Positions 1,140 through 6,650 of a DNA stretch of 64,000 nt are shown here, in pieces. Every line of letters begins with the position of its first letter. Positions within the stretch are counted from its first letter, which is position 1. Made by a program: the position numbers and the translations under genes. Where the stretch lies: NCBI RefSeq assembly GCF_004348725.1, contig NZ_SMKR01000014.1, forward strand, positions 1 through 64,000. Reading direction: 5' to 3'. Below the pieces are notes generated by a model that did not search any database, had not been told where the DNA came from, and saw only the letters and a list, made by a program, of their open reading frames with translations. This stretch comes from Kribbella turkmenica (GTDB taxonomy: Bacteria > Actinomycetota > Actinomycetes > Propionibacteriales > Kribbellaceae).

Positions 1140-1877
1140 ATGACGACGGTTGCTGTCCTGGCGGATGTTCATGGGGTGTTGCCTGCGCTGGAGGCGGTGG
1201 TGGGGGAGGACGACGTTCGGGCGGCTGATGTGGTTGTGCTGGCAGGGGACATCGCCAGTGGGCCGATGCCCGTGGAGACACTGGATTCGTTGCGGTCGCT
1301 GGGCGGGCGGGTGGTCTGGGTCCGGGGGAACGCGGATCGGGAGCTGGTCGCGATGGCTCGAGGGGAGTTCACCGGGGAGCCGCCGGACGGGGTGAGTCCT
1401 TGGGCGGCTGCGGAGTTGCGGGCCGACCAGGTGGAGTTGCTGGCGGGGCTGCCTTCGACGCACACGATCGGCGACGTGATCTTCTGTCACGCGACGCCGA
1501 GGGACGACGAGGAGCTGGTGCTGGTCGACAGTCCGATCTCCCGGTGGGCCGAGGTGTTCAGCGGGTTGCCGGACGAGATCCGGACCGTGGTCTGCGGGCA
1601 CACGCACATGCCGTTCGCGCGGCAGGTCGACCGGCGGCTCGTGGTCAACGCCGGCAGCGTCGGCATGCCGTACGGCGCTCCCGGTCCGAGCTGGGCGTTG
1701 CTGACTCCGGACGGCGTGCAGCTGCGGCGGTCAGACCTCGACAGGACGAAGGCCGCCGAGCGGATCGTCGCGGAATCGTCGTACCCGGATCGGGAGGCGT
1801 GGGTCGCCGCGTACCTGCTGTCGAACTACTCCGACACCGAGGCCCTGGAGGCGTTCAGGCCCCGCGCCGAGGGCTGA
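1140..1877 (+). CDS. Metallophosphoesterase (YfcE/MJ0936-like)
   Basis: A 245-residue calcineurin-like phosphoesterase, the usual length for the small bacterial phosphodiesterase group. The two-metal signature is visible in order: D9-x-H11 (ADVHG), GDIASG near 40, GNAD near 64 (GNHD in most relatives, so the usual His is Ala), CHATPRD near 119 and GHTHMPF near 156. The likely role is hydrolysis of a phosphodiester or phosphomonoester in the cytoplasm; the substrate cannot be read from sequence. It has no signal peptide. The next gene follows after 17 bases but appears to have its own promoter, so the two need not be co-transcribed. Confidence 0.85.
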   Translation: MTTVAVLADVHGVLPALEAVVGEDDVRAADVVVLAGDIASGPMPVETLDSLRSLGGRVVWVRGNADRELVAMARGEFTGEPPDGVSPWAAAELRADQVELLAGLPSTHTIGDVIFCHATPRDDEELVLVDSPISRWAEVFSGLPDEIRTVVCGHTHMPFARQVDRRLVVNAGSVGMPYGAPGPSWALLTPDGVQLRRSDLDRTKAAERIVAESSYPDREAWVAAYLLSNYSDTEALEAFRPRAEG

Positions 1878-1882
1878 GCGGT

Positions 1883-1888
1883 TACCGT
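1883..1888 (+). promoter_or_regulatory. -10 element for a leaderless transcript of the sensor kinase
   Basis: TACCGT fits the actinobacterial -10 consensus TANNNT and ends 6 bases before the GTG at 1895, so transcription would begin on the start codon. No good -35 or Shine-Dalgarno sequence is present. The same arrangement recurs elsewhere in the window. Confidence 0.5.
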
Positions 1889-1894
1889 CGTCAC

Positions 1895-3028
1895 GTGTTC
1901 GTGCGACGGCGGAAGCATTTCGGGACCCTGGCCGACAAGGCGACGTACGCGACTCTGCATACGGCCTCGCTGGCCACTCCACACCTGCGCGAGGGGCTGA
2001 CCCCGGCCGCGGCGGGCAAGGCTAGCCGGCACCTCCGGGACCTCCTCGGTACGGCGGCCATCGCCATCTGCGACTCGTCCGGCGTACTGGCCTGGGACGG
2101 CGTCGGCGGACCGTACGAGAGCAACCACCGCGGTGACGCCAAGGCGCTCGCCGCCGCGACGCTGCGCACCGGCCGTACGGCGGTCCTCGGCGCACATGAC
2201 GTGGCCTGCGGCGATCCCCAGTGCCCGATCCGGACGGCGGTGCTCGCGCCGATCGTCACCGAGGAGCGAGTGGTGGCCGTACTGGTGGCGTACAGCATCA
2301 AGTCGTCGGCGGCGCTGGTCCGAGCGACCGAGGAGGTCGCCCGCTGGGTGTCCGGGCAGGTCGAGCTGGCCGAGCTCAACAGGGAGCGCACCCGGGCGAT
2401 GGAGGCCGAGCTGCGGGCGCTCCGGGCGCAGATCAGCCCGCACTTCATCTACAACGCGCTGGCCGCGATCGCGTCGTTCGTGCGGACCGACCCGGAGCGG
2501 GCACGGGAGCTGCTGCTGGAGTTCGCCGACTTCTCCCGGTACGCGCTCCGGCGGGGCGGTGAGTTCACCACGCTGGCGGACGAGCTGCGGAACGTCGAGC
2601 GCTACCTGGTGCTCGAACAGGCCCGGTTCGGGGACCGGTTGAAGGTGTCGCTGCTGATCGCGCCCGAGGTGCTGCCGGTGGTGATCCCGTTCCTGGTCGT
2701 CCAGCCGCTGGTGGAGAACGCCGTCCGCCACGGTCTGGAGGGCACCACCGGCGCCGGCCGGATCACCATCCGCGCCACGGACCGAATCAACGACGCCGAG
2801 ATCAGCGTGGAGGACGACGGCTCCGGCAGTGACCCGGAGGTCATCCGGGCCGCGCTGGCGGGCCAGTCCGGAAGTGACTCGATCGGCCTCGGGAACGTCG
2901 ACGCCCGCCTGCGGCAGGTGTACGGCGACGCGTACGGCCTGGTCGTGGAGACCGCCGTGGACGCGGGCACCAAGGTGACGTTCCGGGTGCCCAAATACTC
3001 CTCGGGTGTACACGCTGTCCCGCGTTGA
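1895..3028 (+). CDS. LytS/YpdA-type sensor histidine kinase
   Basis: A 377-residue kinase. Residues about 20-145 form a GAF-like sensory region with a Cys pair (HDVACGDPQC). Residues about 170-250 are the His_kinase family (PF06580) core with ALRAQISPHFIYNAL, phospho-acceptor His near 183. A HATPase region follows with N-box VQPLVENAVRHG and G-box GLGNVDARL. No membrane segments are visible, so this is a cytoplasmic sensor. GTG 1895 is chosen because it directly follows a leaderless -10 element and gives the conserved N-terminus FVRRRKHFGTLADKATYATL; GTG 1901 is possible. The probable partner is the LytTR regulator at 5901, 2.9 kb downstream, next to the monocarboxylate symporters that the pair likely controls. 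Confidence 0.9.
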   Translation: MFVRRRKHFGTLADKATYATLHTASLATPHLREGLTPAAAGKASRHLRDLLGTAAIAICDSSGVLAWDGVGGPYESNHRGDAKALAAATLRTGRTAVLGAHDVACGDPQCPIRTAVLAPIVTEERVVAVLVAYSIKSSAALVRATEEVARWVSGQVELAELNRERTRAMEAELRALRAQISPHFIYNALAAIASFVRTDPERARELLLEFADFSRYALRRGGEFTTLADELRNVERYLVLEQARFGDRLKVSLLIAPEVLPVVIPFLVVQPLVENAVRHGLEGTTGAGRITIRATDRINDAEISVEDDGSGSDPEVIRAALAGQSGSDSIGLGNVDARLRQVYGDAYGLVVETAVDAGTKVTFRVPKYSSGVHAVPR

Positions 3029-3053
3029 CCGTGGTGGTGGTGCGAACTAGCGT
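3025..3053 (+). promoter_or_regulatory. SigA/HrdB-type promoter for fdhA
   Basis: TTGACC (3025-3030), a 17-base spacer and TAGCGT (3048-3053) give a near-consensus vegetative promoter overlapping the kinase stop codon. Predicted start is near 3060, leaving a leader of about 164 nt before the fdhA start. Confidence 0.65.
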
Positions 3054-3059
3054 CGACAG

Positions 3060-3223
3060 CGATCCCCCGATGGCGCGTGAGTATCGCCGTCGAACGGATT
3101 CGCCTGGCGGGGCAGGCGACGACTGGATCGCCTCCCAGGAGGCGATCGCAGCCCCGCGACAGCGGTTTCGCGCGGCTCCACGGCGCTCTGCGGTGGAGCC
3201 TCCTCGGAGAGGAGCGGTTACAC
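3060..3223 (+). promoter_or_regulatory. Structured 5' leader of fdhA, candidate riboswitch or attenuator
   Basis: Visible pairings: P1 TCGCCTG (3100-3106) with CAGGCGA (3113-3119), loop GCGGGG; P2 GATCGCCTCC (3126-3135) with GGAGGCGATC (3138-3147); P3 GGCTCCAC (3174-3181) with GTGGAGCC (3193-3200). The P1 loop is exactly complementary to CCCCGC at 3152-3157, allowing a pseudoknot around P2. CTCCTC (3200-3205) pairs with GAGGAG (3209-3214), which is the Shine-Dalgarno region, so this hairpin would hide the ribosome binding site. GGAGG of P2 could instead pair with CCTCC at 3199-3203, so alternative folds exist. I recognise no known riboswitch class. Pairings are seen; function is inference. 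Confidence 0.5.
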
Positions 3224-4438
3224 GTGCCAGGCAACAGGGCAGTGATCTACAAGGGACCAGGCGACGTGGCGGTCGAGACGATCGACTACCCGAGTCTGGA
3301 ACTCAAGGACGGTCCCGGAGTCAACCCGGCGAACGTGGGACGGCAGATTCCGCACGGGGCGATCCTCAAGGTCGTGGCCAGCAACATCTGTGGCAGCGAC
3401 CAGCACATGGTCCGCGGCCGGACGACGGCCCCGTCCGGGCTCGCGCTCGGTCATGAGATCACCGGTGAGGTGGCGGAGGTCGGCCGGGACGTCGAGTTCA
3501 TCAAGGTCGGCGACCTGGTCTCGGTCCCGTTCAACATCGCCTGCGGGCGGTGCATCAACTGCAAGGAGGGCAAGACCGGCGTCTGCCTGAACGTGAACCC
3601 GGATCGGCCGGGCTCGGCGTACGGGTACGTCGACATGGGCGGCTGGGTCGGCGGTCAGGCGGAGTACGCGCTCGTGCCGTACGCCGACTGGAACCTGCTC
3701 AAATTCCCCGACAAGGACCAGGCGCTGGAGAAGATCCGCGACCTGGCCATGCTGTCGGACATCTTCCCGACCGGGTACCACGGCGCCGTCACGGCCGGCG
3801 TCGGGACCGGTTCGACCGTCTACGTCGCGGGCGCGGGGCCGGTCGGCCTGGCCGCGGCCACGGCGGCGTTCCTGCTCGGCGCGGCGGTGGTCATCGTGGC
3901 CGACCTGCAGAAGGAACGGCTCGAGCAGGCGCGGAGTTTCGGCTGCGAGACGATCGACGTGTCGGAAGGTGATCCGAAGGACCAGGTCGAGCAGATCCTC
4001 GGTGTGCCGGAGGTCGACTGCGCGATCGATGCGGTCGGATTCGAGGCGCACGGCCACGGCACCGACGCACAGACCGAGCGTCCCGCCACCGTGCTGAACA
4101 CGGTCATGGACGTCACCCGCGCCGGCGGCGCGGTCGGTATCCCGGGCCTCTACGTCACCGGCGACCCTGGTGCGATCGACGAGGCCGCGAAGACCGGCTC
4201 GCTGTCGATCCGGCTGGGACTCGGCTGGGCCAAGTCGCTGTCGTTCATGACCGGGCAGTGCCCGGTCATGCGGTACAACCGCCAGTTGATGCAGGCGATC
4301 CTGCACGACCGCACGCAGATCGCGAAGAATGTGAACGCCACGGTCATTCCCTTGGACGAGGCGCCACAGGGGTACAACCAGTTCGACCAGGGCGCGGCGC
4401 GCAAGTACGTGCTCGACCCGCACGGACTGATCAAGTAG
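3224..4438 (+). CDS. fdhA: Glutathione-independent formaldehyde dehydrogenase
   Basis: A 404-residue zinc-dependent medium-chain dehydrogenase, matching the length and motifs of the Pseudomonas putida enzyme that oxidises formaldehyde to formate with tightly bound NAD and can also dismutate aldehydes. Catalytic zinc ligands are C56 (NICGSDQH) and H77 (GHE); structural zinc Cys are 107, 110, 113 and 121 (CGRCINCKEGKTGVC). The Rossmann motif AGAGPVGLA follows. GTG 3224 has the strong ribosome binding site GGAGAGGAG (3206-3214) nine bases upstream. The gene has its own promoter and long leader and ends in a strong terminator, so it is a single-gene unit. Actinobacteria usually rely on a mycothiol-dependent enzyme, so this is a parallel route for formaldehyde removal. 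Confidence 0.92.
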   Translation: MPGNRAVIYKGPGDVAVETIDYPSLELKDGPGVNPANVGRQIPHGAILKVVASNICGSDQHMVRGRTTAPSGLALGHEITGEVAEVGRDVEFIKVGDLVSVPFNIACGRCINCKEGKTGVCLNVNPDRPGSAYGYVDMGGWVGGQAEYALVPYADWNLLKFPDKDQALEKIRDLAMLSDIFPTGYHGAVTAGVGTGSTVYVAGAGPVGLAAATAAFLLGAAVVIVADLQKERLEQARSFGCETIDVSEGDPKDQVEQILGVPEVDCAIDAVGFEAHGHGTDAQTERPATVLNTVMDVTRAGGAVGIPGLYVTGDPGAIDEAAKTGSLSIRLGLGWAKSLSFMTGQCPVMRYNRQLMQAILHDRTQIAKNVNATVIPLDEAPQGYNQFDQGAARKYVLDPHGLIK

Positions 4439-4450
4439 ACGCACAGGCGG

Positions 4451-4480
4451 ACGGGAGCAGGGCGACCGCCCTGCTCCCGT
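4451..4480 (+). terminator. Rho-independent-type terminator after fdhA
   Basis: ACGGGAGCAGGGCG (4451-4464) and CGCCCTGCTCCCGT (4467-4480) form a perfect 14-bp stem 13 bases after the fdhA stop. No U-tract follows, as is usual in actinobacteria. ACGGGAGCAG recurs at 4504-4513 and could pair with the same right arm. Confidence 0.75.
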
Positions 4481-4569
4481 CGCTCCGAGTCGTGACCGGG
4501 GCGACGGGAGCAGTGACAACTCGTTGGTCATACTGCAAGGAAGGGAATCCGTCACGAGAGCGACCCTCC

Positions 4570-4761
4570 ATGGACAGTGACAGCCGGCTCGACCTCGAGT
4601 TCGCCTACACGACGTACCGGGACTGCTGTAGAGACCTCTACTCGCCGTACTACTACTGCCGGCGCCCGCTCGGCCACGACGGCGTACACGCGGCAGGCTT
4701 CGGCTCGGGCCGCGTCCGCTGGGAGCACCGGCCTGACCATGCTCCGCACCTGCTGTCCTGA
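4570..4761 (+). CDS. Small Cys/Tyr-rich protein of unknown function
   Basis: ATG 4570 opens a 63-residue frame ending 14 bases before the next gene. The protein has an acidic start, a cluster RDCCRDLYSPYYYCRR with three Cys, and two downstream His (GHDGVHAA, WEHRP). A GAGAG about 10 bases upstream is a modest ribosome binding site. The Cys/His content could bind metal, but no family is recognised. Codon use is like its neighbours and the frame is compact between the fdhA terminator and the CapA gene, which favours a real gene. Confidence 0.5.
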   Translation: MDSDSRLDLEFAYTTYRDCCRDLYSPYYYCRRPLGHDGVHAAGFGSGRVRWEHRPDHAPHLLS

Positions 4762-4775
4762 GCAAGGGCGGAAGC

Positions 4776-5891
4776 GTGGCGGGCGGCACGGTGAAGCTGT
4801 TCCTGGGCGGCGATGTGATGCTCGGCCGAGGTGTCGACCAGATGCTGCCGCACCCGGGCGACCCGGCGCTTCGGGAAAGTTCTGTCAGGGATGCCCGGAC
4901 GTACGTCGAACTCGCCGAGAGCAGGAACGGCCCGATCCAGCGACCCGTCGACCCTTCCTGGCCGTGGGGCGACGCGCTGGCGATCCTCGATCGCTTCGAG
5001 CCTGACGGACGGCTGCTGAACCTGGAGACGAGCATCACCCGCAGCGACGACTTCGCGGCCGGCAAGGGCGTCCACTACCGCATGAGCCCCGACAACGTGC
5101 CCGCTCTGTCGGCTGGCCGGCCGGATGTCTGCTCGCTCGCCAACAACCACGTCCTCGACTTCGGCATCGGCGGACTCGAGGAGACGCTCGATGCGTTGGG
5201 CACGGCCGGGATCGCGGTCGCCGGTGCGGGCCGGAACGCGGCCGCGGCGGCCCGGCCCGCGATCGTGCCGGTGGGCGACGGCGGGCGGGTCGTCGTCTTC
5301 TCCTTCGGTACGACGAGCAGCGGCGTGCCGGGCAACTGGGCAGCGGGCCCGGACCGTCCCGGCATCTCCCTGCTGCCGGATCTGTCCGGCGGCACCGCAG
5401 ACGCGATCACCGCACAGGTGTCGCAGGTCAGGAGCCGGGGTGATGTCGTCGTCGTTTCGGTGCACTGGGGATCCAACTGGGGATACGCCGTGACGCCTGA
5501 GCAGGTCAGCTTCGCGCACCGGCTTGTCGACGGCGGTGCCGACATCGTGCACGGACACTCGGCACACCACCCGCGGCCGATCGAGGTCTACCGGGGCCGG
5601 CTGGTGCTCTACAGCTGCGGAGACCTGATCGACGACTACGAAGGCATCAGAGGTTACGAGGAGTACCGCGACGATCTGCGTCTGCTCTACCTGGCCACAG
5701 TGGACCGCACGACCGGCCGGCTGACCGCGCTGCGGATGGCACCGCTGCAGACCCACAAGCTCCGGCTGCGCCCGGCCGGGCCGGCGGACAGCGCGTGGCT
5801 GTGCCGGATGTTCAACCGGATGGGTCGGCGTCACGGCACCCGTTTCGCGCTCGCCCCGGACGGGCTGCTCGACCTCATTCCTTGGCATTAG
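4776..5891 (+). CDS. CapA-family protein (PGA_cap, metallophosphatase-like)
   Basis: A 371-residue protein of the CapA/PgsA family (PF09587), related to calcineurin-like phosphoesterases and first named for poly-gamma-glutamate capsule export. Visible motifs: LFLGGDVMLGRG near 8-19, LLNLETSIT, CSLANNHVLDFG, VVVSVHWGSNWG, HGHSAHHP and LVLYSCGDLIDDY. Neither a signal peptide nor a membrane helix is visible, unlike many family members, so it is probably cytoplasmic and unlikely to be a capsule exporter itself. The GTG start has AAGGGCGGAAG just upstream. Its stop overlaps the -10 element of the next gene. No other capsule genes lie nearby. Confidence 0.85.
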   Translation: MAGGTVKLFLGGDVMLGRGVDQMLPHPGDPALRESSVRDARTYVELAESRNGPIQRPVDPSWPWGDALAILDRFEPDGRLLNLETSITRSDDFAAGKGVHYRMSPDNVPALSAGRPDVCSLANNHVLDFGIGGLEETLDALGTAGIAVAGAGRNAAAAARPAIVPVGDGGRVVVFSFGTTSSGVPGNWAAGPDRPGISLLPDLSGGTADAITAQVSQVRSRGDVVVVSVHWGSNWGYAVTPEQVSFAHRLVDGGADIVHGHSAHHPRPIEVYRGRLVLYSCGDLIDDYEGIRGYEEYRDDLRLLYLATVDRTTGRLTALRMAPLQTHKLRLRPAGPADSAWLCRMFNRMGRRHGTRFALAPDGLLDLIPWH

Positions 5892-5894: not shown

Positions 5895-5900
5895 GTGCGC

Positions 5901-6650
5901 ATGGCCGACAGTCCCCTGCGCGCGCTGGTCGCGGACGACGAGGAGCCCGCGCTGGCCGAGCTGGTGTATCTGCTGACGCAGGACAGCCGGATCGGCGAGA
6001 TCAAGACCGCGTCGAACGGGCCGGACGCGCTGAAGATCCTGCAGGCCGCGGACCTGGACGTGGTGTTCTGCGACATCAAGATGCCCGGCCTGACCGGGAT
6101 CGACCTGGCGCAGGTGCTGTCCAAGTTCCGCCACCCGCGTCCGCAGATCGTCTTCGTCACGGCCTACGACGAGCACGCGGTGGCGGCGTTCGAGCTCGAG
6201 GCGACCGACTACGTGATGAAGCCGGTCCGAGCCGAGCGGCTGTCCGAAGCCGTCCGCCGGGTCGTCACGGCCGGCGCACCGGCCGCGCTGCAGAGCGCGG
6301 ACGAGACCGACGACGAGGTGATCCCGGTCGAGCTGGCCGGCGTCACCCGGTTCGTCCAGCGCTCGACGGTCCGGTACGTCGAGGCGCAGGGCGACTACGC
6401 CCGCCTGCACACCGGGCAGAACTCGCATCTGGTCCGGATCCCGCTGAGCACGCTGGAGGACCGCTGGCGCGACTCCGGGTTCACCCGGATCCACCGCAGT
6501 ACGCTGGTCGCCCTCGCGCACGTGGACGAGATGCGCGTCGACGGCGGCCGGTGCGCGGTCCGCGTCGGCGGCGACTGGCTGCCGGTGAGCCGCCGCCACA
6601 CCCGCGAGCTCCGCGACCTGCTGGTCCGGTCGACGTCGCTGCGCGGCTGA
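5901..6650 (+). CDS. LytTR-family response regulator
   Basis: A 249-residue DNA-binding regulator. The receiver domain spans about 1-120, with acidic residues D12/D13 (VADDEEPAL), phospho-acceptor D58 (FCDIKMPG) and the conserved K in TDYVMKPV. A LytTR domain follows from about 140 (RYVEAQGDYARLHT, FTRIHRSTLVAL, LPVSRRHTREL). LytTR proteins bind imperfect direct repeats upstream of few targets, often transporters. The kinase at 1895 is the likely partner although three genes lie between them. The downstream small membrane protein and symporters are the likely targets. No separate phosphatase or sensor is adjacent. Confidence 0.92.
   Translation: MADSPLRALVADDEEPALAELVYLLTQDSRIGEIKTASNGPDALKILQAADLDVVFCDIKMPGLTGIDLAQVLSKFRHPRPQIVFVTAYDEHAVAAFELEATDYVMKPVRAERLSEAVRRVVTAGAPAALQSADETDDEVIPVELAGVTRFVQRSTVRYVEAQGDYARLHTGQNSHLVRIPLSTLEDRWRDSGFTRIHRSTLVALAHVDEMRVDGGRCAVRVGGDWLPVSRRHTRELRDLLVRSTSLRG

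Follow-up and report, generated by a model that had tools for sequence, protein, structure and literature searches.

What kind of element, if any, lies in the leader of the formaldehyde dehydrogenase gene fdhA of Kribbella turkmenica? The window analysed here is a stretch of 64,000 nucleotides (contig NZ_SMKR01000014.1, positions 1 to 64,000, forward strand), and its first-pass annotation had proposed a promoter followed by a leader with three hairpins, a loop pseudoknot and a pairing that hides the Shine-Dalgarno (SD) sequence, together forming a candidate new riboswitch. The promoter, the hairpins, the loop complement and the SD pairing are all present in the sequence at the positions given there. 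In the titles and abstracts of the literature, we found no account of a glutathione-independent formaldehyde dehydrogenase controlled at the RNA level and, among open-access publications judged in the same way, no relevant report that connects a riboswitch with formaldehyde dehydrogenase or with Kribbella. The gene and its boundaries are as follows.

3025..3053, + strand: fdhA promoter, read directly (-35 element TTGACC at 3025-3030, 17-nt spacer, -10 element TAGCGT at 3048-3053).
3224..4438, + strand: fdhA, glutathione-independent formaldehyde dehydrogenase, with a GTG start and a match to TIGR02819.
4450..4481, + strand: perfect hairpin 3' of fdhA, a probable terminator without a T run, read directly.

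The fdhA product scores 749.5 bits against TIGR02819 (cut-off 637), and the solved structures nearest to it, 4jlw and 1kol, are both formaldehyde dehydrogenases. Judged by its sequence, the open reading frame (3224-4438) genuinely encodes a formaldehyde dehydrogenase of the glutathione-independent type. Transcription is predicted to start at about 3060, which gives a leader of about 164 nt, and the promoter extends over the end of the upstream histidine kinase gene, whose stop codon it overlaps. The proposed promoter holds up: the same form, usually TTGAC-N17/18-TAGCGT, precedes fdhA in 15/15 orthologues of the genus, with TTGCG as the -35 element at locus L008 as an exception, although a generic sigma-70 scan, which requires A and T at positions 2 and 6 of the -10 element, respectively, did not find it.

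Around fdhA, the window has a GAF-containing histidine kinase (1847-3028) and a LytTR response regulator (5895-6650) as flanking genes, followed by an SSF-family symporter. Because the upstream genes differ in other members of the genus, fdhA and its neighbours may have been inserted into this kinase/regulator block. Directly downstream of fdhA lies the gene for a Cys-containing small protein of 63 aa (4570-4761, + strand), which had no match in a Pfam search. This gene is present in exactly the 15 fdhA-bearing genomes of the genus and in 0/23 others, and we consider its product a candidate partner in formaldehyde handling. A PGA_cap-family protein (4776-5891) is encoded behind fdhA in the window and at loci L008 and L012, and was not found within the 1.5 kb flank examined at the remaining loci.

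If the leader is a functional element, it should be found with its gene in relatives. Altogether, 58 genomes were searched, including 36 others of the host genus, and 38 genomes of the genus were covered in total. fdhA orthologues are present in 15 of these 38 (88-100% identity), and the covariance model R1, built on the leader, detects the structured leader from the predicted start onwards at 14 of the 15 loci (E 1.5e-21 to 1.2e-3 in the 38 genomes), with one copy per genome and only at fdhA. Because R1 was built from 12 of these loci, its scores at the 14 are partly a matter of construction, and the informative part of the result is the absence of other copies in the 38 genomes, in which there was no further match below E 0.08. 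A model of the core only, R2, recovers the same 14 loci within the genus. The core consensus at these loci reads GGAYTCACCTG-N(2-4)-CGGGGCAGGCGACGACYGSATCGC-loop-GCGRTCGCRGYCC, with few exceptions allowed. The one fdhA-bearing genome without an R1 match, G032 (locus L015), has the most diverged fdhA and a diverged core; its 5' hairpin can still be folded. Conservation among fdhA orthologues, on which the first-pass annotation had let its proposal depend, thus favours a real element (14/15, the exception being one very diverged copy), and this element holds a conserved position between the promoter and the start codon of orthologous fdhA genes. The upstream histidine kinase gene is present at 7/15 fdhA loci, and the leader is kept at 7 of the 8 loci that lack the kinase. 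On this gene content, the leader travels with fdhA and not with the upstream gene.

Outside the genus, R1 gave chance-level matches only over 246 genomes of the order, and R2 over 395 genomes of the class returned the genome of the window and a single chance-level match. A match at L142, outside the genus (E=0.0096), was rejected in the absence of the matching core, and a search of fdhA leaders outside the genus (from Jiangella, Nonomuraea, Arthrobacter and Microbacterium, among others) did not find the element.

Two kinds of variant occur within the genus. At the sister loci L010 and L013, the first part of the core consensus is absent, P2 has been lost together with the 5' half of P3 (see below), and L013 is also changed in P4; here, the element may be decaying, which would make these loci natural loss variants. 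Seven loci (L006, L008, L009, L011, L012, L014 and L015) have about 70-110 extra nt between the core and the SD sequence, including a conserved block centred on GGTGATGCC that is missing in the window and its nearest relatives.

The conserved part of the leader comprises the following parts.

3062..3099, + strand: P1/P2, a long 5' hairpin (ATCC 3062-3065 with GGAT 3096-3099; in P2, CGATGGCG 3068-3075 with CGCCGTCG 3085-3092).
3100..3119, + strand: P3, the first hairpin of the first-pass annotation (TCGCCTG 3100-3106 with CAGGCGA 3113-3119; loop GCGGGG 3107-3112).
3109..3112, + strand: candidate pseudoknot, 5' strand (GGGG, part of the P3 loop).
3123..3151, + strand: P4, the second hairpin of that annotation (CTG 3123-3125 with CAG 3149-3151; ATCGCCTC 3127-3134 with GAGGCGAT 3139-3146).
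3152..3155, + strand: candidate pseudoknot, 3' strand after P4 (CCCC; relatives have YCC).

The hairpins described earlier are present; however, the element is larger than was described, since the 5' hairpin P1/P2 is conserved and was not part of that description. Within P1 (ATCCC/GGGAT), which begins about 2 bases past the predicted start, lies the variable hairpin P2. No part of the element changes faster than P2 (49% mean identity), and still 13/13 species fold it into the same long hairpin, with a mean z=-1.95; for comparison, 23 orthologous windows of the fdhA coding sequence reach -1.31 at best and random windows average -0.23. These segments are cut at the P1 strands and, therefore, fixed windows of 60 nt were also used. 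In such unselected windows from 15 species, the folding signal peaks at the predicted start (mean z -1.57), other offsets giving means of -0.08 to -0.70, and with 70-nt windows the contrast is weaker (-0.82 at the predicted start versus 0.22 to -0.64 elsewhere). The hairpin behind fdhA, as an internal positive control, has a mean z=-4.27 in orthologous windows. In the window itself, the whole leader exceeds its shuffles modestly (z=-2.06) and the region 3053-3162 alone reaches z=-3.39; in other species, the folding energies of the leader core are near those of shuffled sequences.

In the core, about 34 of 69 alignment columns are invariant and the apical loops vary. P3 consists of CCTG/CAGG plus an outer UC/GA across an A.C mismatch, which occupies the third stem position in 10/12 species and is a G-C pair in the window. 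The CGGGG loop of P3 does not vary. Pairing in the P3 cells is complete (100%) across the 12 species; L014 shows a single compensatory change, from U-A to G-C, and L005 a single wobble. In P4, a bulged stem, 96% of the cells are paired in these species, and the lower stem carries a compensatory change from C-G to U-A in L001 and L002. A further pairing, P4a (alignment columns 97-133/98-132), was rejected, 98-132 being broken in 7/12 sequences.

The loop pseudoknot of the first-pass annotation survives in reduced form. Its six base pairs, GCGGGG/CCCCGC (3107-3112/3152-3157), are private to this genome, and CCCCGC occurs somewhere in 3120-3223 by chance with p=0.061 in dinucleotide shuffles. By contrast, a 3-bp core, GGG:YCC, can pair in 12/12 aligned species, in three of them via G-U. 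On covariation, the pseudoknotted fold beats the nested alternative (2/500 versus 69/500 shuffles as good). This alternative, Fold II (GGGC/GYCC plus GCGA/TCGC with an extended P1), was rejected for its weaker covariation and because its extended P1 lies upstream of the predicted start. GGG and YCC are nearly invariant, and covariation therefore cannot test the pseudoknot, which is compatible with the aligned sequences and not proven by them.

Could the folding be a chance product of GC-rich DNA, and the conservation a mere trace of recent common descent? Individual pairings give this reading some weight, with p values of 0.06-0.15 in single sequences, and a phylogeny-aware test found no significantly covarying pair among the 12 aligned sequences of one genus (best E about 0.28), as expected because there are 12 sequences with almost no changes in the core. 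However, identity in the core (0.81) exceeds that at third codon positions of fdhA (0.76), so that conservation of the core is higher than that of synonymous sites, even as the adjacent leader sequence turns over (P2 arm, 0.49), and the P1/P2 fold persists at the latter level of identity. The caution voiced earlier about chance pairing in GC-rich DNA concerns pairings that are weak one by one; the comparison with relatives carries more weight, and we regard this reading as quite improbable.

Alternatively, the conserved stretch could be a DNA operator bound by a transcription factor, with an incidental RNA fold. In favour of this, P4 forms an inverted repeat, contact sites could lie in the invariant blocks GGATTCACCTG and GGGGCAGGCGACGA, and a histidine kinase/LytTR regulator pair flanks fdhA in the window. 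The consensus-fold signal is, however, strand-specific: 2/300 column shuffles fold as well on the + strand and 66/300 on the - strand. Moreover, the P2 arm keeps its fold while losing sequence identity, loops differ in length by single bases, the conserved region lies downstream of the predicted transcription start, and the histidine kinase is missing at half of the loci. We therefore disfavour an operator and consider it unlikely.

A conserved leader may also prove to be an upstream reading frame. PMC10272879 reports that the Corynebacterium ilvB-II leader, which is likewise conserved in one actinobacterial genus, acts via such a frame, and the leader in the window is open in frame with fdhA. 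By contrast, in 6/15 fdhA leaders no start codon is preceded by an SD-like sequence, these leaders have no upstream frame in common, and length differences of 1 nt in the loops break the frame. An attenuator based on an upstream frame was rejected, as no shared translated frame was found in the 15 leaders, and a leader peptide is largely refuted and very improbable.

With an RNA element as the preferred reading, the next question is how it would act on fdhA. Two structures lie near the SD sequence.

3172..3199 (approximate limits), + strand: hairpin GGCTCCAC...GTGGAGCC immediately 5' of the SD sequence, present in several relatives and absent or replaced in others.
3200..3214, + strand: hairpin over the SD sequence (CTCCTC 3200-3205 with GAGGAG 3209-3214), with a similar form in L015.

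The SD-hiding CTCCTC/GAGGAG pairing that was central to the original proposal exists in the window, but most orthologues lack it; CTCCTC matches by chance with p=0.12 in 3120-3208 and p=0.15 in the 23 nt that precede the SD sequence (dinucleotide shuffles), and in most species the surroundings of the SD sequence fold much as shuffled sequences do. Most orthologues do not share the suggested competition of GGAGG for CCTCC; GGAGG is present in the apical part of P4 only in the window. Core and start codon lie at distances that differ by well over 100 nt from species to species, no T-rich terminator was found in the fdhA leader, and a conserved expression platform, whether SD sequestration or terminator, was not found across orthologues. 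Because neither the SD hairpin nor GGAGG is conserved and the start codon keeps no fixed spacing from the fold, the specific switch is unsupported as a shared mechanism. The lack of a conserved platform therefore lowers the case for the translational switch as proposed, and not that for regulation in general.

The earlier statement that no riboswitch class is known for this gene agrees with Rfam, in which a search of the window gave no match at the gathering threshold and, at permissive thresholds, only sub-threshold chance matches in the leader (E 1.1 or more). Among these, the orphan cis-regulatory motifs nhaA-II (RF03038; score 17.7, gathering 70.4, E 2.3) and chrB-a (RF03078; score 13.1, gathering 43.9, E 8.1) resemble the fdhA leader in their 5' leader position, their hairpins and their narrow gene association. 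Both match on the opposite strand, and on this evidence the fdhA leader is not homologous to either. The yjdF motif RNA, orphan-like and almost exclusively tied to one gene according to PMC4793209, shares the single-gene association; its gene differs and it has no match at the gathering threshold here. The fdhA leader is absent from Rfam and likely a previously undescribed element.

Based on the position of the leader, its conservation with the gene, the shape of its fold and its absence from Rfam, all of which are shown here, we suggest that a real, undescribed, genus-restricted orphan cis-regulatory leader RNA precedes fdhA, and we hold this to be likely; the leader RNA is probably a control element. 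In this model, the leader would be transcribed from the predicted start, and the first ~100 nt of the fdhA mRNA would fold into P1/P2, then P3 and P4. The CGGGG loop of P3 would probably pair with the YCC strand after P4, and the P3 loop, P4 and YCC would form a core to which a small molecule or a protein binds. The leader would thereby tune fdhA expression, in translation, in transcription elongation or through mRNA stability. Of the first reading of this locus, the compact fold, the possible pseudoknot, the association with one detoxification gene and the absence from Rfam remain, while its specific expression platform does not.

Two forms of such a leader RNA can be distinguished. In the first, it is a true riboswitch, in which the core of P3, P4 and the pseudoknot would bind a C1-related metabolite (a formaldehyde adduct, a folate, a thiol or an NAD-like cofactor). 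The many invariant positions of the core, its variable apical loops and a detoxification enzyme as the sole gene fit a riboswitch, while the lack of a conserved expression platform and the restriction to one gene in one genus do not, and on the sequences compared we put this forward tentatively, as a distinct possibility that falls short of probable. In the second, the leader is bound by a protein (autogenously or by a regulator) or governs RNA stability and does not sense a metabolite. Here, the restriction to one genus and one target gene and the unconstrained distance to the start codon agree, but loops and internal loops are conserved in sequence as well as stems, and we rate this form about as probable as the first. 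The narrower proposal of a new one-genus riboswitch class, in which the pseudoknotted core would sense formaldehyde stress (through a C1 adduct, a folate or a thiol) and control fdhA, is in our view somewhat unlikely.

As the fdhA leader shows, current libraries do not cover regulatory RNAs that are restricted to one genus. If it is a control element, it would give direct access to the way in which these bacteria sense a toxic C1 metabolite, and it may represent a new ligand-binding RNA.
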